64,000 bases of DNA from Methanolobus profundi. Its GTDB lineage: Archaea; Halobacteriota; Methanosarcinia; Methanosarcinales; Methanosarcinaceae. Positions within the stretch are counted from its first letter, which is position 1, and every line of letters begins with the position of its first letter. The notes below the pieces were generated by a model. It saw nothing but the letters and a program-made list of their open reading frames with translations. It ran no database searches and was not told where the DNA came from. The stretch lies in contig NZ_FOUJ01000001.1 in NCBI RefSeq assembly GCF_900114835.1, positions 744,001 through 808,000 of the forward strand, written 5' to 3'. The position numbers were made by a program, and so were the translations under genes. Below are positions 18,372 through 42,874 of the stretch, piece after piece.

Positions 18372-19136
18372 ATGTTAATAGTAGACAAAGAAGGTATCCT
18401 TATCAGATACAACGTTAAGATGGAAAAATCAATGACCCCTGAAGAGGCGGCAGCAGAACTCTATCCAAAAGAGGAGTTATACAAGCCAATCGCAGAAGCG
18501 ATCTTTGAGGGTGAAGAAGATGATGTAATAGAAGGTCTCGAAGCAGCAATCGCAGCAGGCAAGGACCCGATCGCACTCATCGACGATGCACTTATGGTAG
18601 GTATGAAGGTAGTAACCGACCTTTACGACCAGGGTGTAATCTTCCTTCCAAACGTAATGATGTCCGCAGATGCAATGCTCGACGGTATCGAGTTCTGTAA
18701 GAGCCAGTCCACAGAGACCCCAGTCCAGAAGGGCAAGGTCGTCTGTATGGTCGCAGAAGGTGACGTACACGACATCGGTAAGTCAATCGTAGCAGCTCTC
18801 CTCAGGGCAAACGGCTATGAAGTTATCGACCTCGGAAGAGATGTACCATCAGCAGAAGCACTCGCAGCTGTAAAAGAGCACGAGCCACTCATGATGACCG
18901 GAACTGCACTCATGACAACAACCATGTACGCATTCAAGGAAGTCAACGACCTTCTCGTCGAGAGCGGAATCACAATGCCATTCGCATGTGGTGGCGGAGC
19001 AGTAAACCAGGACTTCGTATCAACCTACTCACTCGGTGTATACGGAGAAGAAGCAGCAGACGCACCAAAGATGGCTGACGCTATCCTTGCAGGCGCAGAC
19101 ATTGCAGCACTGAGAGCAAAATTCCACAACCACTAA
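18372..19136 (+). CDS. mtaC: Methanol-specific corrinoid protein
   Basis: 254 residues. It carries the methyl group on a corrinoid cofactor between MtaB and MtaA in methanol-dependent methanogenesis. The cobalamin motif is GDVHDIG with lower-ligand His133, followed by VIDLGRDVPSAE and GTALMTTTMYAFKEV. The cap domain is residues about 35-115. Codon use strongly favours C-ending codons and a narrow codon set, unlike most of the window, as expected for a very highly expressed gene. It is followed after 11 bases by mtaB. Confidence 0.97.
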   Translation: MLIVDKEGILIRYNVKMEKSMTPEEAAAELYPKEELYKPIAEAIFEGEEDDVIEGLEAAIAAGKDPIALIDDALMVGMKVVTDLYDQGVIFLPNVMMSADAMLDGIEFCKSQSTETPVQKGKVVCMVAEGDVHDIGKSIVAALLRANGYEVIDLGRDVPSAEALAAVKEHEPLMMTGTALMTTTMYAFKEVNDLLVESGITMPFACGGGAVNQDFVSTYSLGVYGEEAADAPKMADAILAGADIAALRAKFHNH

Positions 19137-19147
19137 GGTGATCACAA

Positions 19148-20527
19148 ATGGCAATTAAAAGATTTACATCAATGGCATACTCCGAAGCAGATGAGATGGT
19201 CTTCGGTAACGCAAAATTACCTGTGAAAGCAGGTCTTGACCTCGAGATCGGAGCAGGATACACAACTGCAGAAGTAAACTACGCACCAAGGCCAGAAGCT
19301 GGTGAGTCTATGGAGAAGCTCGTAAACGAGTACCAGAGAATCACAAAAGATATCATGGCTAGAATGGTCCAGGTAGGTTTCCCATCCGTAGTACTTGAGA
19401 CAGAACACGTACAGCAGATGACCAACAACCCATCATGGGGAGCAGCTGTAGCACACGCACAGAAGACCATCATGGAAGAGTACCATGAAGAATATGGAAT
19501 CAAATGTGCACTGAGACACACCCCTGGTGACATCAGAGAGCACAAAGAGTTCATGCAGCTCAGAGGCGACAAGATGGCAGTGGTCATGGAGTCCTTCGAA
19601 CAGATCGCAGAAAGCGGCGCAGACCTTCTCTCCATCGAATCAATGGGTGGAAAGGAAATCTTCGACTACGCAGTACTCAGGAACGATGTTCCAGGTATGC
19701 TCTACGCAATCGGCTGTCTTGGTACCATGGACATGGACTACCTCTGGCAGGAGATCTCAAGCGTAGCACAGAAGAAGGGCGTTGTCTCCGCTGGTGACAC
19801 CGACTGTGCACAGGCAAACACCGCAATGTTCATTGCAGGTGGTCTCCTCGACAAGAACCTTGCACACACACTTGCGATCCTCGCAAGAGCAATCTCCGCT
19901 CCAAGATCACTCGCAGCATACGAAGCTGGCGCAGTAGGTCCAGGAAAGGACTGTGGATACGAGAACATCATCGTAAAGGCAATCTCCGGTATGCCAATGT
20001 CCTTTGAAGGTAAGACTTCAACCTGTGCACACTCTGATGTAATGGGTAACCTTATCATGCAGTGCTGTGACCTTTGGTCAAACGAGTCTGTTGAATACCA
20101 CGGTGAATTTGGTGGTACAACAGTACAGTGCTGGTCAGAGTCCCTCAACTACGACTGTGCTCTTATGAACACAGCTCTTAAGTCAGGAAACGAGAAGATC
20201 CTCAGAGACCTCCTCATGGCTTCCGACAGATTCAGAGACCCACAGTCCTATGTACTTGCATACGACAACGCATACGCAGTCGGTGAAGCAATCGTTAAGG
20301 ACGGAGAAGACATCTTCCTCCGTGCAAAGAACGCTGCAATAGCATGCTGTGACACACTCAACAACGCAGACGGTCTTGAGATGACAAAGTTCGAACTCGG
20401 TGCACTCGCAAAGGCAACCGCAGAACTCGACGCAATCACCTCAGAATCCGAAACATTCATGAGCGAATGCATGGAGCGCTTCTCAAAGGAAGTCCCAGTA
20501 TTCAAGCCAGAGAACTACGCTCTCTAA
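19148..20527 (+). CDS. mtaB: Methanol:corrinoid methyltransferase
   Basis: 459 residues. It transfers the methyl group of methanol to the Co(I) corrinoid of MtaC. The zinc ligands established for the Methanosarcina barkeri enzyme (Glu164, Cys220, Cys269) are present at exactly those positions here (LSIE164, GDTDC220, GKDC269). A GGTGAT ribosome site lies in the 11-base gap after mtaC, and codon bias is the same as in mtaC, so the two form a highly expressed operon. A strong terminator follows immediately. Confidence 0.97.
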   Translation: MAIKRFTSMAYSEADEMVFGNAKLPVKAGLDLEIGAGYTTAEVNYAPRPEAGESMEKLVNEYQRITKDIMARMVQVGFPSVVLETEHVQQMTNNPSWGAAVAHAQKTIMEEYHEEYGIKCALRHTPGDIREHKEFMQLRGDKMAVVMESFEQIAESGADLLSIESMGGKEIFDYAVLRNDVPGMLYAIGCLGTMDMDYLWQEISSVAQKKGVVSAGDTDCAQANTAMFIAGGLLDKNLAHTLAILARAISAPRSLAAYEAGAVGPGKDCGYENIIVKAISGMPMSFEGKTSTCAHSDVMGNLIMQCCDLWSNESVEYHGEFGGTTVQCWSESLNYDCALMNTALKSGNEKILRDLLMASDRFRDPQSYVLAYDNAYAVGEAIVKDGEDIFLRAKNAAIACCDTLNNADGLEMTKFELGALAKATAELDAITSESETFMSECMERFSKEVPVFKPENYAL

Positions 20528-28222: not shown

Positions 28223-28516
28223 TTAGCAACAGCCATCATCACCACAGCAGCATGCATCACTGTCCATATCTTTGCCCTTGAGTGCTGCATTTATCATTGC
28301 CCAGGCACAGCCAACACCACTCTGTACCTCGATGGCCTCTACAGGACAATTTCCGGCACAAGCTCCGCATTCCATACACTTTTCAGGACTTGTGAGCTCT
28401 ACATGACCTTTTCCTTCAGTGAAGACTCCATGTGGGCATACCTGAGTACATATAAGGCAGTTGATGCATTTTTCAGGATGGAATTGAAGGGTATTCTCAT
28501 TGTATGAATTGAACAT
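28223..28516 (-). CDS. hgcB: Mercury methylation ferredoxin HgcB
   Basis: 97 residues from the ATG at 28516, which overlaps the hgcA stop (TGATG). It has two [4Fe-4S] binding sets, C17-x2-C20-x2-C23-x3-C27 and C47-x2-C50-x2-C53-x3-C57 (CMECGAC is typical of HgcB), the conserved lone Cys70 in GVGCAWAMI, and a C-terminal cysteine tail (CCC and final CC). HgcB is known to reduce the HgcA corrinoid and to bind Hg(II) through these cysteines. A longer frame upstream is an artefact of reading into hgcA. Confidence 0.95.
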   Translation of the reverse strand: MFNSYNENTLQFHPEKCINCLICTQVCPHGVFTEGKGHVELTSPEKCMECGACAGNCPVEAIEVQSGVGCAWAMINAALKGKDMDSDACCCGDDGCC

Positions 28517-29592
28517 CAGATAATCTCCATTAAACGGCTTGCTCCAAGGACAATAAGGCAGATTATTCCGGTACCTGCTTTTAGTGCTATGTACGGTACA
28601 TATTTGAATATCTCTTTCTTGACCCCGGTCCTGGATGTATAGGTAGTACAACCTGTGAAGTTCAGTGCAAGGAATCCTGTCACTGCAGGAATTAGAAGGA
28701 ACATTGCCATCAATGTAAGTATCTTCTCCCAGAGTACTATGGAGGGGTCAGCTGCAAGTACAATTCCGAAAGGTATCGTTACCAGCCAGCCAAGGATGAT
28801 CCCTTTGATACTGAGATCATGGGCAGGCAGGAAAGGAAGCAGGACCGGGAAAAGTACCGTTCCTGCAACTGCGGCGATGACTGCGATGAGCGCTGCAAGA
28901 GGACCTGATAACATGTAGAGCAAGATCGCAGCGATGATCGTTGGTTTAACCACGTGGACAAATTCTATTGGTGTCAGTACCAGCCTGTCCTTGAATGTGA
29001 ACTTCACCTTTCTCATTTCAGGTGTGGCAGTATGGGTTTTGAGATACTCAGGAAGGTCACTGGCACGTACAGGTCCGTATTCGACTTTAAATCCTGACCT
29101 TTTACTGATCTCATGTGCAGATACTCCCGGTGCACCGAGCTGTGGCAGAATGAGTTTACGATGGTTCACGATCTTAGAAAGTCCTGACCATTTGATACGA
29201 TATACTATCTCATCAGTTCCAAATGTCCCTTTTCCGGCAGCACACCAGACGTTTATACCTTTTGTATCTATAACAAGGATGTAACAGTCGATACCTGCAA
29301 GTGAACTGCGAAGTGCATCAAAACTGAGGGTGTAATTAGCTGATACAAAGACAGGAGAATCTGCATCAGGCGTTCCTAATTTATAGATGCCAGGTTGGAC
29401 TATGTGTTCTGAACGTCTAAATCCCCATCGTGCAAGGAAATGGTCGAACCTGTCATTGAAGGTGAGATCACTTGTTGTTTCCTGAATTTCCGGTGCAGGG
29501 CTGTTTTTATCCAGTCCTATCATCTGGATGAACTGACCTGTGTTCACTTCAGTGTCAGATGAACAGCATCCTCCGTTGTTGTTAGTATCCAT
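28516..29592 (-). CDS. hgcA: Mercury methyltransferase corrinoid protein HgcA
   Basis: 358 residues. The cap-helix motif NVWCAAGK lies at residues 114-121, with Cys117 the expected unusual lower cobalt ligand. The corrinoid domain covers about 45-200, and four or five transmembrane helices fill about 205-355. HgcA transfers a methyl group to Hg(II), making neurotoxic methylmercury, at the cytoplasmic membrane. The N-terminus has an extra Cys-Cys (GGCCSS, residues 7-12). AAAGGA precedes the start. hgcB follows in a one-base overlap. Methanolobus and Methanomethylovorans are among the methanogens known to have this pair. Confidence 0.97.
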   Translation of the reverse strand: MDTNNNGGCCSSDTEVNTGQFIQMIGLDKNSPAPEIQETTSDLTFNDRFDHFLARWGFRRSEHIVQPGIYKLGTPDADSPVFVSANYTLSFDALRSSLAGIDCYILVIDTKGINVWCAAGKGTFGTDEIVYRIKWSGLSKIVNHRKLILPQLGAPGVSAHEISKRSGFKVEYGPVRASDLPEYLKTHTATPEMRKVKFTFKDRLVLTPIEFVHVVKPTIIAAILLYMLSGPLAALIAVIAAVAGTVLFPVLLPFLPAHDLSIKGIILGWLVTIPFGIVLAADPSIVLWEKILTLMAMFLLIPAVTGFLALNFTGCTTYTSRTGVKKEIFKYVPYIALKAGTGIICLIVLGASRLMEII

Positions 29593-29889: not shown

Positions 29890-31074
29890 ATGCCAGAAAA
29901 GAAAAAGCCCCTTACAATAGCTCTTTCGTTGTTACTCTTAATGTCCATAGTTCCAGGAGTAATGACAGACGTCTGGGATGTCATCTCTCCTGCAAAATCA
30001 CTTGACGAGTTTGAACCTTTTAAGACATCACTCGTAACTGGAAGTGGTGTGGAAAATGTAGATATTTCGCCTGATGGCAAATTTGTTGTAAGCAGCACAC
30101 TTGGAATGGTTAACTTATGGGATGCAGCGGATCTCGACTTACTCTATGGTTATCATGTTATGAATGATGAAAGCGGTGCTACTGTGAAACAACGTGAGCC
30201 ATATTACAACCTTGTAGATATTGAATTTTCTAAACCTGGAAACTATTATTTAGTAGGCTCCAATAGTGATCATCCACATTATGGAGGAATGGAAGCATCA
30301 CATCTGACACTCTACAACATGACACATAGCATAGGTGTTGCCAGCAGAACTTTCAGAACCCACCAGATAAACGATACTCTCATAGAGGACACTGCCATTT
30401 CCCCGGACGAAACTACCTATGCAGCCTGCACGGAAATGACAACAAACCCTGAGAGTTGCACAATTACATTATGGGATATTGAAACTGGCGAAGTTGCGAA
30501 TTCAATTACAAGTGACAATTACAAAGCAACCTCGATCACATTCACACCTGATGGAAAATATCTGGTTGCAAGTTTTGACAACAACATTAATCCTGACAGA
30601 ATAGTTGTTTTTGCTCTGGAAAATGGAGATGTTGTCAGGACGATGGAAGAAAGAGCGGTTACTGACCTCCATTTCTCTGATGATGGAAATATCCTTGCAG
30701 CAGGCAGCATCTATCGTAGTGAGGTAATAGTCTGGGATGGGAATTCTTACGAGGAAATGTATCGTTTGAGAGGATTGGAACTTTCGCCTGACAGCACTGC
30801 ACTTTCGAGAGATGGAAAGTATATCATGGCTATGGACTATTCCAGACTGATCGTATGGGATACCGAATCGAAAAGAAAGATCGTGAGTAGCAGACATCGA
30901 AATATTGATTTTGTTGACTCATTCTCATCAGGCACGTTCTCAGATGATGGAAAATATCTTGTAATGGCATTGGTAGTAAAAAGGGGTTCAGAGTATACTA
31001 GACAGCCTGATTATAACTCAGGAATGGTCTTTGTTTATGATTTTGAAGAAATACTGGAATCCTATTATGAGTGA
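29890..31074 (+). CDS. Secreted WD40-like beta-propeller protein, copy 1
   Basis: 394 residues. A signal peptide (MPEKKKPLTIALSLLLLM) is followed by about seven propeller blades, seen from repeated units such as ISPDGKFVVSS, ITLWDIETGE, FTPDGKYLVASF and FSDDGNILAAGS. Such extracytoplasmic propellers usually act as binding scaffolds. No membrane anchor is seen at the C-terminus. No ribosome site is present before the ATG, so the message may be leaderless. It is followed at once by a near-copy. Confidence 0.8.
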   Translation: MPEKKKPLTIALSLLLLMSIVPGVMTDVWDVISPAKSLDEFEPFKTSLVTGSGVENVDISPDGKFVVSSTLGMVNLWDAADLDLLYGYHVMNDESGATVKQREPYYNLVDIEFSKPGNYYLVGSNSDHPHYGGMEASHLTLYNMTHSIGVASRTFRTHQINDTLIEDTAISPDETTYAACTEMTTNPESCTITLWDIETGEVANSITSDNYKATSITFTPDGKYLVASFDNNINPDRIVVFALENGDVVRTMEERAVTDLHFSDDGNILAAGSIYRSEVIVWDGNSYEEMYRLRGLELSPDSTALSRDGKYIMAMDYSRLIVWDTESKRKIVSSRHRNIDFVDSFSSGTFSDDGKYLVMALVVKRGSEYTRQPDYNSGMVFVYDFEEILESYYE

Positions 31075-31082
31075 GTTTTAAC

Positions 31083-32267
31083 ATGCCAGAAAAGAAAAAG
31101 CCCCTTACAATAGCTCTTTCGTTGTTACTCTTAATGTCAATAGTTCCAGGAGTAATGACAGATGTCTGGGATCTTGTCTCCCCAGCAAAGTCACTTGACG
31201 AGTTTGAGCCCTATAAAACATCCTATGTGGAAGGAAGTGACGTGGAAAATATAGATATCTCCCCAGATGGGAAATTTGTTGTAAGCAGCACACTGGGCAC
31301 AGTCAACTTCTGGAATATAGTGAGACGCGATGAACGATTTGGATACCATAAACAGAATGATGGGACCAGCGCTACGGTAGAAGATCATGAACCATATTAC
31401 AACCTTGTAGACATTGAGTTTTCTACACCAGGAAACTATTATTTGGTAGGTTCCAACAGTGATTATCCGTATTATAAAGGAAGAACATCATCACATTTGA
31501 CACTCTACTATATGACTCACAGCAAAGGTGTAGCCAGTGATTATTTAAGAGGACATGAGATAAACGATACTCTCATAGAGGATACTGCCATTTCCCCGGA
31601 CGAAACTACCTATGCTGCCTGTACGGAAATGACAGCAAACCCCGAGAGTTGCACAATTACATTATGGGATATTGAAACTGGCAAAGTCGTGAATTCAATT
31701 ACAAGTGACAATTACAAAGCAACCTCGATCACATTCACACCTGATGGAAAATATCTGGTTGCAAGCTTTGATAACAGTATCAATCCTGACAGAATACTTG
31801 TCTTTGATCTAAAAAATGGAGATATTGTCAGGACGATAAAGGAAAGGGCGGTTGCTGACCTCCAGTTCTCAGATGATGGGGAGATTCTTGCAGCAGGTAG
31901 TCTTTATCGTAGTGAAGTAATTGTCTGGGATGGGAATTCTTACGAGGAATTGTATCGCTTGAAGGGATTGGAGCTTTCACCTGATAGTACTGCACTTTCA
32001 CGGGATGGAAAGTATATTATGGCTATGGACTATTCCAGACTGATCGTATGGGATATCGGGTCAAAAAGAAAAATCGTGAGTAGCAGGCATCTAAATATTG
32101 ATTTTGTTGACTCATTCTCATCATGTACGTTCTCCGATGATGGAAAATATCTTGTAATAGCATTGGTAGTAAAGAGAGGTTCTGAGTATACCGTACAACC
32201 TGATTATAACTCTGGAATGGTCTTTGTTTATGATTTTGAGGAGATATTGGAATCCTATTATGAGTGA
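31083..32267 (+). CDS. Secreted WD40-like beta-propeller protein, copy 2
   Basis: 394 residues from the ATG at 31083, which matches the start of copy 1; a GTG at 31071 is also in frame. The first 90 bases differ from copy 1 at only about two positions, and long later stretches are also near-identical, while the part coding for residues about 70-170 is more diverged. This points to a tandem duplication with partial gene conversion. The copy starts 9 bases after the first copy ends, so they are co-transcribed. Function as for copy 1. Confidence 0.8.
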   Translation: MPEKKKPLTIALSLLLLMSIVPGVMTDVWDLVSPAKSLDEFEPYKTSYVEGSDVENIDISPDGKFVVSSTLGTVNFWNIVRRDERFGYHKQNDGTSATVEDHEPYYNLVDIEFSTPGNYYLVGSNSDYPYYKGRTSSHLTLYYMTHSKGVASDYLRGHEINDTLIEDTAISPDETTYAACTEMTANPESCTITLWDIETGKVVNSITSDNYKATSITFTPDGKYLVASFDNSINPDRILVFDLKNGDIVRTIKERAVADLQFSDDGEILAAGSLYRSEVIVWDGNSYEELYRLKGLELSPDSTALSRDGKYIMAMDYSRLIVWDIGSKRKIVSSRHLNIDFVDSFSSCTFSDDGKYLVIALVVKRGSEYTVQPDYNSGMVFVYDFEEILESYYE

Positions 32268-32552: not shown

Positions 32553-32834
32553 TCATTTCTTCTCTGTAGATCTTATGGAAACACGGAAGTCCCAGTTCAA
32601 TTTGTTCTTATTTACGGGTGAAAATCCACATCTTAGCATTGCTTCTTTGAACTGTGGATTTGTGATGAAGAAACCATCTGGTGATTCCTCGAAAAGAAGT
32701 TTAAGCGCATAACTGGCATAAGTTTTCTCTTGTGTCCTTTGTGGGAGGATATTTGCCCTGATCCAATCATCAATGGCTTTTTTTTGATCTTCGGGTAATT
32801 CGAATTCGTCTGTTTCTTTCTTCTTTTTTGCCAT
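32553..32834 (-). CDS. Conserved-looking small soluble protein
   Basis: 93 residues, not assigned to a named family. A lysine-rich start is followed by a helical region (PEDQKKAIDDWIRAN) and a compact segment (TYASYALKLLFEES, GFFITNPQFKEAMLRCGF, LNWDFRVS) that resembles small proteins carried by phages and bacteria as single units. The gap 32268-32552 upstream of its end has a small GC-rich hairpin (CCGGCTTCGCCGG at about 32421) that may terminate the propeller operon. Confidence 0.5.
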   Translation of the reverse strand: MAKKKKETDEFELPEDQKKAIDDWIRANILPQRTQEKTYASYALKLLFEESPDGFFITNPQFKEAMLRCGFSPVNKNKLNWDFRVSIRSTEKK

Positions 32835-32892: not shown

Positions 32893-33906
32893 CTACGCCA
32901 ACAGATCGCTCATATCGATCTCCTTCCCAGTTCTCAACTGATCTCTGAGCTGTGTGATCTTCCTGTCTATCTTCTCAAGGCTTTCCAGATGCTTTTTCTC
33001 GTCATCTGTGGTCTTCATGAGCTTTGAGATACCACCGTTCTTTATGACGATCCGCTGGTCTGCTGAGAGAGCGAGTAGGGGGTCGTGGGTGCTGATAAGG
33101 ACTATCTTGTTATTACTTACCAGAAGTTCCAGTGATCTTACCTTGTCAACTCCGGCATTCTCTATCTCATCTATCAGGACCACTGATGCAGGGCTTAGGA
33201 GTGCTGTGTCAGCGATCATCAGGGCTCTTGACTGTCCTCCGGAAAGTTGTGTGACAGGGGTTTCCCTGCTGAAAGACTCACCTGCAAGGACGTTCGCTGT
33301 ATCGTATATCTTCTGGACGATATGGGATATCTCATCAACCATACGGCTCTCTGCATGAAGTGTGAGGAAATCCTCTACACTAAGGTCCATGACAAAGTTC
33401 ATGTTCTGGGAGAGTTGAGCTATAAAACGGCCTTCGGTAGAGAAACGTTCCTCATCGTCCGGAGCACGACCATTGATCAATATTCTGCGCTTGGTTGGTG
33501 TGTCCTCCTGGGCCAGAGATTCAATATCGGCCAGAAGGCGTGATTTTCCTGAACCGGTGGGACCAACGATCGCTGTCACTTCACCTTTCTTCAGTTCAAC
33601 TGAAAACTCTTCTTTCTCACCATTCTTATTGTGTCCTGGGAGCACGGTCAGAGATCCAACTGTGAGAACATTACCCTCCTGAAGAACTTTTACCTGCTCA
33701 ATGAACAAAAAAAATCCGTCAATAAAGGTCTGATAGTCACTTCCTCTTTCTTCAAAATACTCTTCAGTAAGTATTGAACCCAGATTTTCCAGTTTTGTCC
33801 TCCCGAACTGCGAAGGGTCGATCGCAAATGAAGATAAATAATCCTCTATCCACGGCATCATCTCCATGAGCTCATCTATAGTTCTATGAAGCATATCTGT
33901 CCGCAT
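32893..33906 (-). CDS. Lone ABC-type ATPase of a three-gene cytosolic unit
   Basis: 337 residues. The nucleotide-binding domain has Walker A (GPTGSGKS, residues 115-122), a Q-loop glutamine (QLSQNMNF), the signature LSGGQ, Walker B (VVLIDEIEN) and the switch histidine (STHD). Ahead of it lie about 100 residues, the first 60 helical (TIDELMEMMPWIEDYL), similar in character to DUF1858. No membrane protein is encoded nearby, so a normal ABC transporter is unlikely. It follows the GTPase gene with no gap and ends with a charged coiled tail (ESLEKIDRKITQLRDQL). It may power a maturation or metal-handling step (inference). Confidence 0.8.
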   Translation of the reverse strand: MRTDMLHRTIDELMEMMPWIEDYLSSFAIDPSQFGRTKLENLGSILTEEYFEERGSDYQTFIDGFFLFIEQVKVLQEGNVLTVGSLTVLPGHNKNGEKEEFSVELKKGEVTAIVGPTGSGKSRLLADIESLAQEDTPTKRRILINGRAPDDEERFSTEGRFIAQLSQNMNFVMDLSVEDFLTLHAESRMVDEISHIVQKIYDTANVLAGESFSRETPVTQLSGGQSRALMIADTALLSPASVVLIDEIENAGVDKVRSLELLVSNNKIVLISTHDPLLALSADQRIVIKNGGISKLMKTTDDEKKHLESLEKIDRKITQLRDQLRTGKEIDMSDLLA

Positions 33907-34602
33907 TCACTCATCTCCTCTGAAATTCACCAGTTTTGAAACGCCGATCTGCCTGTCATCTCCGATCATCCTTTCCCCAAGACAATATGAACACAGGGCT
34001 CCGGGCATGGTAAACCTGAGTACGGCTCCCTGGAGTGTCTCAACTGAAGTTGTCTTTTCCACCAGCTTTGCAAGGTAGAATGCTCCCTGTCCGGTAACCC
34101 CATTGAGCTGGACTATCGTCCCGCCGGGGTTGACCTGTCTGACCCTGTATGCAAATACCTCACGCTCTGCCTGGGACACGATATCTCCCTTGGTGATAAC
34201 AACGATATCCGCAAGTTTCAGCATAGGTCCGATCTTCTTTGGTGTATTGACACCACTCAGGTTATCAATGACACAGATCGCAAGGACATCCTTGATGTGT
34301 GGGGAGCAACGATTGCAGAGCCCGGCACTTTCAGTTATCAGGAAATCGAACTTCCGCTCTTCCGCCCATCTGAGGGCTTCTTCTATATTGCTTACAAAGA
34401 AATGGTCAGGACAGAGACCTCCGGATAGGCCGGTCCTGACCGGTATGTTATGAGCTGCATAGAGTTCCTCATCCTGGGCTGAGAGGCAGTCGAACTTTAC
34501 CACACCTATCGCAAAGCCCTTTTGTCTGAGCTCTTCGATGGTTTTGATAATAATACTGGTTTTTCCTGATGACGGAGGACCTGCTACCGTAACAAGTCTC
34601 AA
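33907..34602 (-). CDS. HypB/UreG-like P-loop GTPase with CxxC motifs
   Basis: 231 residues. Walker A is GPPSSGKT (residues 8-15), the switch II region is LITESAGLC, and a G4-like motif is TKGD (137-140). This is the SIMIBI class architecture of metal-insertion GTPases such as HypB and UreG. Cysteines lie in C64PDH, C96NRC99 and C204SYC207, giving likely metal or Fe-S sites that ordinary HypB lacks at these places. The start overlaps the stop of the binding-protein gene (ATGA) and its stop abuts the ABC ATPase start. It may load or couple metal transfer with GTP hydrolysis (inference). Confidence 0.8.
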   Translation of the reverse strand: MRLVTVAGPPSSGKTSIIIKTIEELRQKGFAIGVVKFDCLSAQDEELYAAHNIPVRTGLSGGLCPDHFFVSNIEEALRWAEERKFDFLITESAGLCNRCSPHIKDVLAICVIDNLSGVNTPKKIGPMLKLADIVVITKGDIVSQAEREVFAYRVRQVNPGGTIVQLNGVTGQGAFYLAKLVEKTTSVETLQGAVLRFTMPGALCSYCLGERMIGDDRQIGVSKLVNFRGDE

Positions 34603-35834
34603 ACGACACCACCGGTTATCATGAACTGCTTATTGAACACCTCTGCGATCTCTTTTTTGAGCGCTCCTATATCAGTGTTCAGCAGGAAATCCCAGCCAAG
34701 CCAGTAGAGTGAGTCCACATCTTCAAGCTTGTTCTTGACCTCGGGGTGTGTTGTCGGGAAGAATGCCTTAGCTGATATCTCACCGAACTTCTTTCCGCAG
34801 AGGAAATCAGTTATTTCCTTCACTCTCTCGGTTGCTTCCTTTTTCACCAGCATTTGGACAGGGCTTACAATTGCACCTTCTGTGGGTACAGTGATAGTTA
34901 CCCTTGACCTATCCTTGATCTTCATGGCAAAGAAATGAGGCATGATATACATTGGAGGGACATCGTCCTTCTTGCTGTCGATCATTTTTACCATCTCGGA
35001 GGGATGTGATCCGGCATATATGGATGAAGCAAGTTTCTTCATTCCTTCCATACCATACATCTGGTAGAATGGAAGCAGTACGCCATTACAGAAGAAACCG
35101 TTCTGTCCTCTCATTACTACCTTGTTCCTGAATTCCTCTTCTAATATAGCTCCCCAGGAAGTCGGTGTGGCTTTACCTTCCATTAGCTCATCTATTGTGA
35201 CAAGGACGAGAAGATTTCCGGAGAGCATAGTGAACTGTCCACGTGGGTCGGCGAAATCTATGGCTTCAAAATCAGAATTCATAGGTGATGCACCAATGTC
35301 TGTGAAATATTCATGACTGAGGAAGTTCTCTTGGAATGGTTTGTGGTAGAAACTGTTTATGTCAGAACTGATGATTATGTCCGGCAGTTCTTCTTCTGAT
35401 GTGACCGAATCCATGTAGGCATAGTAGGATATCTCGTGGTTGACGTTACCTTCTACGAGTGAATGAAGCACATTACCTGTACGCTCTGTGTATTCGCTTG
35501 AGAATTCATTCAGTGCGCGGTTAAAGGGCATTTTCATACCACAGGGTAAGAGTGCCAGAAGTGTCAGCTCTTTTTGTCTTTCCGGTGATCCTGCAAGGGT
35601 GAATTCTCCTTTTGCTTCATTGTCCAGAATAGCCTGATCCAAAAGCTCAATAAAAGATCCCTTATTGACCGATACCATTGATAGAGCAGTTTTTAACTTT
35701 AGCAAAGGGCCAAGTTGTTCAAGAACATCCTTTCTCTCAAACTTTTCCAGTCCATGCTGCTTGAATATCTTGATCAAATAGGGATGTTCGCTTAAGATCT
35801 GGTATATGCTCATTGTCTCTTCTATTTTTTTCAT
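34599..35834 (-). CDS. Cytosolic substrate-binding-protein-like protein with N-terminal DUF1858-like domain
   Basis: 411 residues. The first 75 residues (MSIYQILSEHPYLIKIFKQHG) resemble the DUF1858/ScdA-N helical domain. The remainder resembles type 2 periplasmic binding proteins of ABC importers for iron and similar ligands (LPDIIISSDINSFYH, FADPRGQFTMLSGNLL, TVPTEGAIVSPVQMLV). There is no signal peptide or lipobox, so it should be cytosolic, unlike real ABC binding proteins. A GAGGGA ribosome site precedes the ATG. It is first in the three-gene unit, translationally coupled to the GTPase. Confidence 0.75.
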   Translation of the reverse strand: MKKIEETMSIYQILSEHPYLIKIFKQHGLEKFERKDVLEQLGPLLKLKTALSMVSVNKGSFIELLDQAILDNEAKGEFTLAGSPERQKELTLLALLPCGMKMPFNRALNEFSSEYTERTGNVLHSLVEGNVNHEISYYAYMDSVTSEEELPDIIISSDINSFYHKPFQENFLSHEYFTDIGASPMNSDFEAIDFADPRGQFTMLSGNLLVLVTIDELMEGKATPTSWGAILEEEFRNKVVMRGQNGFFCNGVLLPFYQMYGMEGMKKLASSIYAGSHPSEMVKMIDSKKDDVPPMYIMPHFFAMKIKDRSRVTITVPTEGAIVSPVQMLVKKEATERVKEITDFLCGKKFGEISAKAFFPTTHPEVKNKLEDVDSLYWLGWDFLLNTDIGALKKEIAEVFNKQFMITGGVV

Positions 35835-36235
35835 GTTGTTCCCTCTGATATACCTTTGAGCAGTATCTTATTTTCCTGCATGGCATTAATGTTAATATTC
35901 TTCTAACAGTAGCATTGTAAAATAAAACTTAGATCCTTGTCTCAGGTCGGTCTCAAATTAACACCAACTTTGTTTTTGTTTCTATTATTGTGGTGTCAGT
36001 TATCTCAATAGTCATACAAACATATAAGTATTGTTATCTAAGAAGCAGATTTCCGACTACGTTGTTGAATCAAAACAGAAAAAAGTAAATTCAATATATT
36101 TTCTTTATCCTGTTACTGATTATATGTCGCTTGATATTGTTCATCATCATAATGATATATTAGTTCATAGATATATTTAAATAGTATTCTAAATTACTAG
36201 TCTTTACTCAACAAACATGCTAAAAACAGAAAAAC
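35835..36235. other. AT-rich intergenic region
   Basis: No gene is seen. It holds the upstream region of the three-gene unit and, near 36000, an imperfect inverted repeat (ACACCA and TGGTGT). A TATA-like stretch (GATATATTTAAAT, about 36170-36183) precedes the structured segment starting near 36210. Confidence 0.4.
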
Positions 36236-38917: not shown

Positions 38918-41900
38918 TCAGACATACAGGCTCTGGGATCTCATCTCCTGTTCAAGGTCCCCATCGCCTTCTCTGTCAGGGGCATTTGATGATAATGATC
39001 TTTCACTGCTCTTATCGACCTTGAACTTGGATACGATGTATTGCATCTCTGATGCAACATTCGCAAGCTGGTGTGCTGACGCGGTCAGTTCCTGCATGGC
39101 CGCTGTCTGCTGTTCTACTGCAGCAGAAGCTTCCTGTGTTCCTGCAGCGGATTCCTCTGAGATCGATGATACCTCTTCGATAGAGGATGTGACCTCTTCT
39201 ATGGATGCTGATTGTTCTTCGGCTGCAGCAGCGATCTCCTGCACCATTTTCACAACTTCGTTACCTGATTCTACTACCTGATCAATGGAACTAACAGCTT
39301 GCTGAAGTGATTCTGCACCGTCTGCTACCTCGGAATTAGCCTGGTCCATAGAATTGACCGCATTGGTCGTTCCTTCCTGCATTGCATGGATGAGAACTGC
39401 TATCTGTTTGGCCGCATTGCCTGAATCCTCTGCCAGCTTTCTTACCTCATCAGCAACAACAGCGAATCCCCGGCCATGTTCTCCTGCCCTTGCAGCCTCG
39501 ATAGCTGCGTTCAGTGCAAGCAGGTTGGTCTGATCGGCAATATTAGTTATCAGGTTCACGATCTCCCCGATCTTGTTCGACTTCTCCGCCAGATCATTTA
39601 TGTGCTGTGATGATTCGTCAGAAGCAGTTTGTATCCCTGACATCTTTTGCATCAGGTTCTGTGCAACGATACCAAGATTCTGTATAAGCTCATTGGAGGC
39701 TTCCGAGTTCTCAGCTGTCTTCTGTGAATTATTTGCTACTTCCAGGACCGTACGGGTCATATCTGACATTGCCCTTGCAACTTCCTCGGTCTTGGATGAT
39801 TGTACCTGTGCTCCTCTTGCTATCTCTTCTACAGTTGAGGATACCTGACTTGCAGATGATGCAAGTTCTGTGGATGAGCCTGACATCTCTTCTGCAGTAG
39901 AAGCTAACACAAAGGCATCTTTGAGTACCGCTGATACTATCTCATTAAGTGAAAGGCGACAATTCTCTATTCCGTCGGTAAGTTCTTTGAATTCTCCGAC
40001 ACCCTGGACCTCTGATCTGCGTGTAAGGTCATTATTGCTTATCGCACCAAGGACAGCATTTGAATCCTCGATGATCGCTTCCAGCTCCTGTCCCAGTTCA
40101 TTGAGCGTGTCTGCAAGCCTCATAAAGTCTCCCTTTGTCTCGATACCAAACCTTGTGTTGAGCTTACCTGCAGCAAATCCATTGATGACCCTGGATGCTT
40201 CTTCTACAGGTGTTACTATTGCGTCCAGACAATTGTTAACTCCATCAACTATCTTCCTGAAGTCCCCTCCATGCTTTTCTGCATCAGCACGTGTTGCAAG
40301 TTTACCTTCTACACCTGCATCCGCAAGCATTACTGCATCACCAACAAGCATGTTCACCGCATCGATACACTGATTGATGTTGTTCTTTATCTCATTGAAA
40401 TCTCCCTGATATTCATCATCTATCTTCTCAGGGATATCTCCTTTAGCGATACGATCAATGTATTCTGCTGCTACGTTCAATGGTCCTATGACCGCATCCA
40501 GAGTAGCATTGACACCTTCGATTATCTGTCTGTAATTACCATCGAACCTGCTCGCATCGGCACGTTCATCCAGTCTTCCGGCGATCGCTGCTTCCACAAG
40601 CTCCTGAACTCCTTTTGTGATCTCCATTTCCTTGCTTATGTCCAGCACGTATTCCAGTCCACCGATTATCTCTCCCTTTTCGTTCTTCAGGGGTGTACCT
40701 GAATATCTGATCGGTGTCTCTCCTGAAGGCAGATCCGCGATCGTGTCACTGGTACAGACCGAATCGGTCCTCATGGCCTTTCCTAACTGGCAGTTATCTG
40801 TATTACAGTGTTCTGTATTGAAAAGGTCGAAACATTTCTTTCCAACACAGTTCTCTGGGGTGCTTCCAACTGCTGATGCTCCCAGTTTGTTCATGAACTG
40901 GATATTGAAATCCTTGTCCACGACCATTACAGGTGTTGGGACCTTCTCCAGATAGTCAGCCCTGATCCCTGATTCTTCTAAAGCTGATTTTTCTGCTGTC
41001 TTGTCCATCACTATCTCAAGAGCACCTATGATCTCACCACTTCTGTTGCGGATCGGAACTCCATTATAGTCGATGAAGAGGTTCTTGTCCCCTGGATGGG
41101 CATCGGTTTCATTGGATTGGCTCTTTCCGGTGCTCATGGCCTTTGCACAGGCACATTTATCAGTGTTACAATCCGATGTCCTGAAATTATCATAGCATTT
41201 CTGACCGATCAGTGAAGACTGCTCTTTTTCAATAACTGCTGCACCTGCTTTGTTCATATAATTGATATTGAAGTCATTGTCTATTATCATGAAAGGTGCC
41301 GGAATACTATCTATGTGGCCTACAAGGGTGTCGATCACAAAATTGATATTGCCCACAAGGTCAGCGAATTTCCCGGTGAACATATCGGCATTTCCTCGGG
41401 TGCTCAACTTGCCTTCAACTGCAGCTTCGATAAGATCGTCCGTTTCATCAAGAAGCGAATTAAGGGTATCTATACACTGGTTGAGATTGTTCTTTATCTC
41501 GTTGAAATCCCCATTGTAGTCATCTGTTATCTTCTCAGGGATATCACCTTTTGATATGCGGTCCACATACTCTGCTGTTACATTTAGTGGTCCTATTACC
41601 GCATCGAGACATCCGTTGACCCCTTCTACGACCCTTCTGAAGTCCCCTGTGTGCCTTGAAGCATCTGCTCTTGTATCCAGTTGTCCTGCTACCCCTGCAT
41701 CAGATAATGTCAGTGCATCCTCTACCAGCAGGTTCACTGCATCTATACACTGGTTGAGGTTGTTCTTTATCTCGTTGAAATCCCCACTGTAATCATCTGT
41801 TATCTTCTCTGGTATGTCACCTTTTGATATACGGTCCACATACTCTGCTGTTACGTTGAGTGGTCCGATAACAGCATCAAGACATCCGTTCACTCCCTCT

Positions 41901-42814
41901 ACGACCCTTCTGAAATCTCCTGTGTGTCTTGAAGCATCTGCTCTTGTATCCAGTTGTCCTGCTACTCCTGCATCAGATAATGTCAGTGCATCTTCTACCA
42001 GCAGGTTCACTGCATCTATGCACTGGTTGAGGTTGTTCTTGATCTCATTGAAATCCCCATTGTAATCATCTGTTATCTTCCCGGGGATGTCACCTTTTGA
42101 TATGCGGTCCACATATTCCGCTGTTACATTGAGTGGTCCGATAACAGCATCGAGACATCCGTTCACTCCTTCCACAACTCTTCTGAAGTCCCCTGTGTGT
42201 CTTGAAGCATCTGCTCTTGCATCCAGTTGTCCTGCTATCCCTGCATTCGATAATATCAGGGAATCTTCAACAAGCAGGTTTATCGCATCTATACACTGGT
42301 TGAGATTGTTCTTTATCTCGTTAAAATCGCCCTTATATTCGTCCGTTATCTTCTCGGGGATGTCGCCTTTTGATATACGGTCGATATATTCTGCTGATAC
42401 ATTGAGTGGTCCGATCACTGCATCAAGGAGATCATTGATCCTTTCCAGTATCTCCTTTGAAGCACCGGAGAAGCTGTTGGAGTCTGCTCTTGTGTCCAGC
42501 TCTCCCTTGATCGCTGAATTTACCAGACCGGATACCTCGTTCAGTAGTGATGTATTGTCAATTTCCTTTTCATCCATTTCTGTAGAGGCCATTTCTTTTT
42601 TGAGAGCTGATAATTCATCTAATAAAAGATTGATATTGTCTGCTGTACTCTGTTTCTCTGGTTTTGACTGAGGGCCGACCCTGGCATCGAGGTTCCCCAC
42701 CATGAAACTATTTATGACATCTGTCATTTCTGACTGGAATTTATCGCTAGTGCTAAACATTTCTATCCCAAACCCGTCAACTGTTGAACTGTTGCTATAA
42801 TATTGATAAGACAT
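38918..42814 (-). CDS. Soluble poly-HAMP chemoreceptor with two cysteine-rich PAS domains
   Basis: About 1298 residues from the ATG at 42814; an in-frame TTG at 42832 and an ATG at 42760 with GGGAT upstream are alternatives. There is no membrane segment. In order: tandem HAMP-type units of about 91 residues (to about residue 505), with at least three nearly identical; two PAS-like domains, each with a cysteine cluster ([17 protein letters not shown] and [17 protein letters not shown]); two or three further HAMP units; and a methyl-accepting signalling domain with the conserved hairpin tip ([20 protein letters not shown]). It should signal to CheA/CheW from the cytoplasm. The cysteine clusters may bind metal, heme or Fe-S. 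Confidence 0.9.
41500..42430 (-). repeat. Tandem 273-base coding repeats (HAMP units)
   Basis: The block beginning TCTGTTATCTTCTC on the plus strand recurs near 41523, 41796, 42069 and (as TCCGTTATCTTCTC) 42342, a period of 273 bases (91 codons). Units coding for the same segments are nearly identical at the DNA level, a sign of recent expansion or gene conversion. A more diverged unit occurs near 40400-40570. Confidence 0.85.
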
Positions 42815-42874
42815 ACACAAATTGTTTTTCAAAACTACAAAATGTATTTAATGTGTCTTAATTTTAATAAATTT

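Follow-up and report, generated by a model that had tools for sequence, protein, structure and literature searches.

The window, by which we mean the whole 64,000-nucleotide stretch analysed here, carries three adjacent genes on its reverse strand, which we refer to as the triad. The first (35834-34599) encodes a binding-protein-like protein of 411 amino acids, in which a helical DUF1858 domain (residues 4-57) precedes an SBP_bac_6 domain; the second (34602-33907), which starts with TTG, encodes a 231-residue SIMIBI GTPase that is related to HypB and UreG and belongs to the Pfam cobW family; and the third (33906-32893) encodes an ABC ATPase of 337 residues with a helical domain at its N terminus (approximately residues 1-80). 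The binding-protein and GTPase genes overlap by 4 bases and the GTPase and ABC ATPase genes are separated by 0 bases, as the first-pass annotation of this DNA had described in every detail. No permease was found among the translated genes flanking the triad (28-43 kb of the window). Directly 3' of the triad, on the same strand, a gene at 32553-32834 encodes a 93-amino-acid protein of unknown family with homologues in two of the other loci compared (L032 and L034); it is at most a candidate member of the triad module. The nearest named relatives of the host genome are Methanolobus and Methanosarcina.

Further along the reverse strand lie hgcA (28516-29592), which matches CdhD and has an NVWCAAGK motif, and hgcB (28223-28651, the real start probably being internal), which encodes a 2x[4Fe-4S] ferredoxin with C-terminal cysteine pairs. 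These are the genes of corrinoid-dependent mercury methylation. Two tandem and very similar beta-propeller-like repeat genes (29890-31074 and 31071-32267, forward strand) lie between hgcAB and the triad; no relative examined was seen to have them at this position. Elsewhere in the window, we note a 1304-residue methyl-accepting chemotaxis-like protein (38918-42832, reverse strand) with several near-identical HAMP-like repeat modules and PAS-like domains, and mtaC/mtaB-type methanol:corrinoid methyltransferase genes (18372-20527, forward strand) recognized by their B12-binding and MtaB Pfam matches.

A conserved promoter element private to the window's clade, GGAAN6TTCYTANAN4AATA, precedes the triad at 36029-36054 on the reverse strand. 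Except in genome G007, the loci of this clade have a single, perfectly matching copy of it upstream of their triads. Directly 3' of it is the TATA-box-like sequence CTTATATG (36021-36028, reverse strand), which is probably the archaeal core promoter. The genome of the window contains only this one perfect match, and the only match with two mismatches falls inside the open reading frame of a MATE-type transporter, so we rejected the idea that other genes are under the same element.

The conservation of the triad was assessed with a scan of a genome collection, which yielded 482 encoded relatives of the GTPase (the best 80 were kept), with Deferribacterota, Desulfuromonadales, Geobacter, Clostridia, Halanaerobium, Fusobacteria, spirochaetes, and Bacteroidota among the groups represented. 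Together with loci from related archaea and a sample of Clostridia, this gave a set of 128 loci, in which near relatives of the Methanolobus type are over-represented and a few loci are present twice via different collections, and in which the ABC ATPase gene adjoins the GTPase gene in 121 and the binding-protein gene in 90. Because the three genes stand side by side in some 90 loci spread over many phyla, their adjacency goes beyond chance, and we conclude that the triad is a conserved unit across anaerobic phyla.

The binding protein scored 37.2 bits against DUF1858 (cut-off, 32.2) and 219 bits against SBP_bac_6, and its AlphaFold model (pLDDT 88.9) has the type II periplasmic-binding fold, with FutA, FbpA, and STM0429 among the best PDB matches (E approximately 1e-13 for FutA and FbpA). 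Although it shares this fold with FbpA and FutA, the triad protein differs from them in being cytosolic, in its N-terminal DUF1858 domain, and in the replacement of the tandem tyrosine iron ligands: the two tyrosines of FbpA (1y4t) align with P-H/Y-F-F. Because these tyrosines are not kept, the cargo may not be Fe(III). Conserved candidates for the cleft are Leu-96, Pro-97, Cys-98, Trp-227, His-277, Met-281, Trp-378, Gly-380, and Trp-381; all of these but Trp-227 are candidates to stand in for the tyrosines, and Cys-98, which follows the first strand, may by this position correspond to the first FbpA metal ligand. The protein did not reach the cut-off of TIGR03980, the HCP-associated redox disulfide domain (14 versus 44.95 bits), and its residues 1-60 lack cysteine, so there is no CxxC redox pair.

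The GTPase shares with HypB and UreG the Pfam cobW domain, the P-loop, and the region of the Cys-Pro metal motif, and UreG (4hi0 and 5xkt) and HypB (2hf8) are its nearest solved structures. It nevertheless fell short of the NCBIfam models for HypB (TIGR00073; 53.0 bits, cut-off 121.2) and UreG (TIGR00101; 36.6 bits, cut-off 204.2), and its Pfam hits did not include a CooC-type (MinD/CbiA-type) match. In an alignment of 18 diverse relatives, which takes in paralogues from coenzyme M loci, the cysteines and histidine of C64-P-D-H67, C96xxC99, and C204xxC207 are invariant. C64-P aligns with the Cys-Pro-His motif of UreG and falls in the Cys-His segment of HypB, the histidine being displaced by one residue; C96xxC99 sits just after the ESAG motif. 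Both CxxC pairs are extra relative to HypB and UreG, and the G4 motif reads TKGD in place of NKxD. A further difference is that the triad GTPase is partnered by an ABC ATPase and not by HypA or UreE/F/H; the window's genome has a separate HypA and a HypB-like gene approximately 128 kb away. By analogy with UreG and HypB, the invariant cysteines may bind metal.

The ABC ATPase (Pfam ABC_tran, 64.8 bits) is very strongly conserved, with Walker A, the LSGGQ signature, Walker B (LIDEIENAG), and the H-loop intact and invariant. Its ATPase domain gave only generic fold matches (LptB, CbiO, MacB, and SmsC2). It resembles SUF-type SufC/SmsC2 and other stand-alone ABC ATPases in having no permease of its own, SmsC2 being among the top folds, and differs from SufC/SmsC2 in that the triad has no SufB/D-type scaffold and in the presence of the N-terminal domain. 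This domain, modelled as seven helices (pLDDT 89), aligned with the DUF1858 domain of the binding protein (hhalign 96.8%, E 2.6e-10). To our knowledge, this homology has not been reported before. The first-pass annotation had correctly recognized the intact ABC motifs, the helical extension, and the missing permease neighbour, as well as the DUF1858 domain and the lack of a signal peptide (there is no hydrophobic N terminus) in the binding protein and the two extra CxxC motifs of the GTPase; it overlooked that the extension is, by profile comparison, a second DUF1858-type domain.

The GTPase relatives group by partner in a phylogenetic tree, with 25 label changes across all labels versus 69.7 when shuffled, in what is a quick tree with long branches and unsure deep joins. 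A large bacterial clade is accompanied by hybrid cluster protein (HCP), a CRP/HcpR-type regulator, an 80-residue zinc-ribbon protein, and YgbA_NO; one clade has DUF364 ("putative heavy-metal chelation") neighbours; and some clades have FecCD importers and a cytosolic binding protein free of DUF1858. The clade of the window (14 rows, 100% SH-aLRT) lies outside the bacterial HCP clade. In two relatives, the triad is surrounded by genes that, from a reading of their sequences, are NifX-like, Mrp/MinD-type, and DUF1847/DUF134-like. Further, the GTPase and ABC ATPase have paralogues of approximately 48% identity in coenzyme M loci, in which an ATPase, a "Ni2+ binding GTPase," and COG2000 genes have been described beside coenzyme M genes with their role stated as unknown (Chadwick et al. 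2025, PMC12068725). This pair adjoins COG1900 (MMP16/ComF), cysteate synthase, and comDE. Unlike the triad, it falls in different GTPase clades, its ABC ATPase (approximately 254 residues) misses much of the N-terminal extension, and a COG2000 Fe-S protein stands in place of the binding protein. We note that the window's genome lacks this coenzyme M-linked pair, which most congeners carry. Overall, the partners of the GTPase subfamilies, namely HCP, the COG1900/COG2000 coenzyme M genes, DUF364, and FecCD/ModABC, are related to metals or metalloclusters.

Because of the invariant metal-type residues and these partner genes, the most likely reading is that the triad works in the cytosol as a nucleotide-driven machine, delivering a metal ion, a metal complex, or a metallocluster to a client enzyme, a view we hold with confidence just short of even. 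The metal cargo, the client, and the following order of steps are what we infer. First, the binding-protein fold would hold the cargo inside the cell. Second, the UreG/HypB-type GTPase would bind the metal via its invariant cysteines, with the GTP/GDP cycle gating release. Third, the ABC ATPase, probably as a dimer, would provide an ATP-driven conformational step and would dock to the binding protein, or to a common partner, via the related DUF1858-type domains. The idea of a metal maturation machine had already been put forward in the first-pass annotation, and the UreG/HypB-like cysteines and the neighbouring HCP, coenzyme M cluster, DUF364, and Mo/Fe-type transporter genes lend it indirect support. 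Literature on DUF1858 with a GTPase, HCP maturation, DUF364 with CobW, and hgcAB neighbourhoods yielded no description of the triad. It is possible, and we suggest this only tentatively, that a previously undescribed two-motor maturation class is at hand, in which a HypB/UreG-type GTPase and a permease-less ABC ATPase work with an intracellular binding fold, use paired DUF1858-type docking domains, and have been adapted clade by clade to HCP, a coenzyme M synthase, metal importers, or a Methanolobus enzyme.

In bacteria, a link to the nitrosative-stress regulon, which the first-pass annotation overlooked, became apparent from the upstream regions. The consensus sites of HcpR, a nitric-oxide-response regulator, are TTGACN4GTCAA and GTAACN4GTTAC (PMC1274295). 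With at most one mismatch, they occurred in the upstream region of 28 of the 77 bacterial triads versus 17 of 1240 for other genes; a control with reversed motifs gave 1/77 and 27/1240. Once triads with HCP or CRP as the upstream neighbour were excluded, the count was 20/60. By these operator matches, many bacterial triads appear to be under HcpR control. HCP-family proteins were encoded by all 14 GTPase-bearing Clostridia versus 102 of 231 others (p 2e-5, a value that ignores shared descent), and the setting of the bacterial versions is likely to be HCP and nitrosative stress. Because HCP is far commoner than the triad (102 of the 116 HCP-bearing genomes in the Clostridia sample were without the module), making HCP does not in general depend on the triad. 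The YgbA_NO family protein, a further link to the nitric oxide response, adjoins the triad in seven loci (e.g. L067:11678-11980). The 80-residue protein lies just 3' of the ABC ATPase gene in HCP-type loci (L104:7096-7338 and 30 other bacterial loci) and combines an invariant N-terminal M1-H2 with a zinc ribbon and a PCH motif, for which no dedicated protein family was found. Its similarity to HypA (E 7e-5 for the ribbon, below the cut-off; hhalign 52%, ribbon only) does not extend beyond the ribbon, and generic zinc ribbons score alike against the HypA model, so identity with HypA was rejected.

These observations bear on a different role, in which the binding protein and the ATPases would capture iron or iron-nitrosyl freed by nitric oxide and restore Fe-S or other centres that had been damaged, in contrast to maturing a single dedicated client. 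The HcpR-type operators, the neighbouring HCP, YgbA_NO, and HcpR-type CRP regulator genes, and the ScdA/YtfE-type and DUF438 di-iron hemerythrin proteins next to the triad of L101 are consistent with such repair, but paralogues are found in loci for coenzyme M synthesis and for transporters, and upstream of the triads of the window's clade no HcpR site was found, with GGAAN6TTCYTA and TATA there instead; we consider repair rather unlikely. We did not accept HCP as the client of the window's triad: the window's genome has several HCP genes, none near the triad, an HCP gene adjoins the triad in only one genome of the genus (G004), and HCP occurs both with and without the triad.

Less probable still is a signalling or sensory module, in which the cytosolic binding fold would sense a ligand and the two NTPases would relay its state to a partner. 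The conserved cleft candidates of the binding fold and the lack of a catalytic partner in the operon would fit, but the unit has no DNA-binding, kinase, or cyclic-nucleotide domain, and the invariant CxxC pairs and UreG-like motif point to metal.

An orphan ABC importer that borrows a permease encoded elsewhere is very improbable, even though the binding protein and ATPase are importer-like and FecCD or ModB permeases stand beside some paralogous pairs. By N-terminal hydropathy, a signal peptide or lipobox was found in none of 76 binding-protein homologues: their highest 11-residue value was 1.85, whereas exported BtuF/ModA controls encoded in the same loci reached 2.4 or more. A FecCD or ModB permease lay within 5 genes of only 3 of the 90 triads with a binding protein; the FecCD or ModABC importers adjoining some paralogous GTPase/ABC pairs come with a separate ATPase and an exported binding protein; and importers do not feature an ABC subunit with a DUF1858-type domain. 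The first-pass annotation had held the triad to be cytosolic and not a transporter and had proposed such a neighbourhood survey, naming regular permease neighbours and signal peptides as the pattern that would contradict it. Because signal peptides occur in 0/76 proteins and a permease near only 3/90 triads, that pattern is absent, and the cytosolic reading is well supported.

Equally doubtful is that, in Methanolobus-type methanogens, the triad helps HgcAB to handle corrinoid or mercury. In its favour, nine loci, all of the Methanolobus type, have hgcA immediately downstream of the triad, and within the genus hgcA occurs in 10 of the 11 genomes with the triad versus 4 of 14 without (p 0.004). 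Against it, G007 (L214) has the triad without hgcA, G018, G009, and G006 have hgcA without the triad, some genomes have both far apart (approximately 21 kb in G004), no bacterial triad examined adjoins hgcA, and the linkage may be inherited synteny. With the linkage limited to a single genus and failing in either direction, hgcAB was rejected as a general client; of the corrinoid loading suggested earlier, the adjacency to hgcAB stands for this genus only, and triad and hgcA each occur alone.

If metal or metallocluster delivery is the right reading, a gene set automatically annotated as "ABC transporter" in many anaerobes would be an intracellular cofactor-loading system. The triad would then be a testable candidate for the building or repair of HCP or other metalloenzymes of the nitric oxide response, and it would also give a hint of what the ATPase and GTPase genes beside those of coenzyme M synthesis do (PMC12068725).
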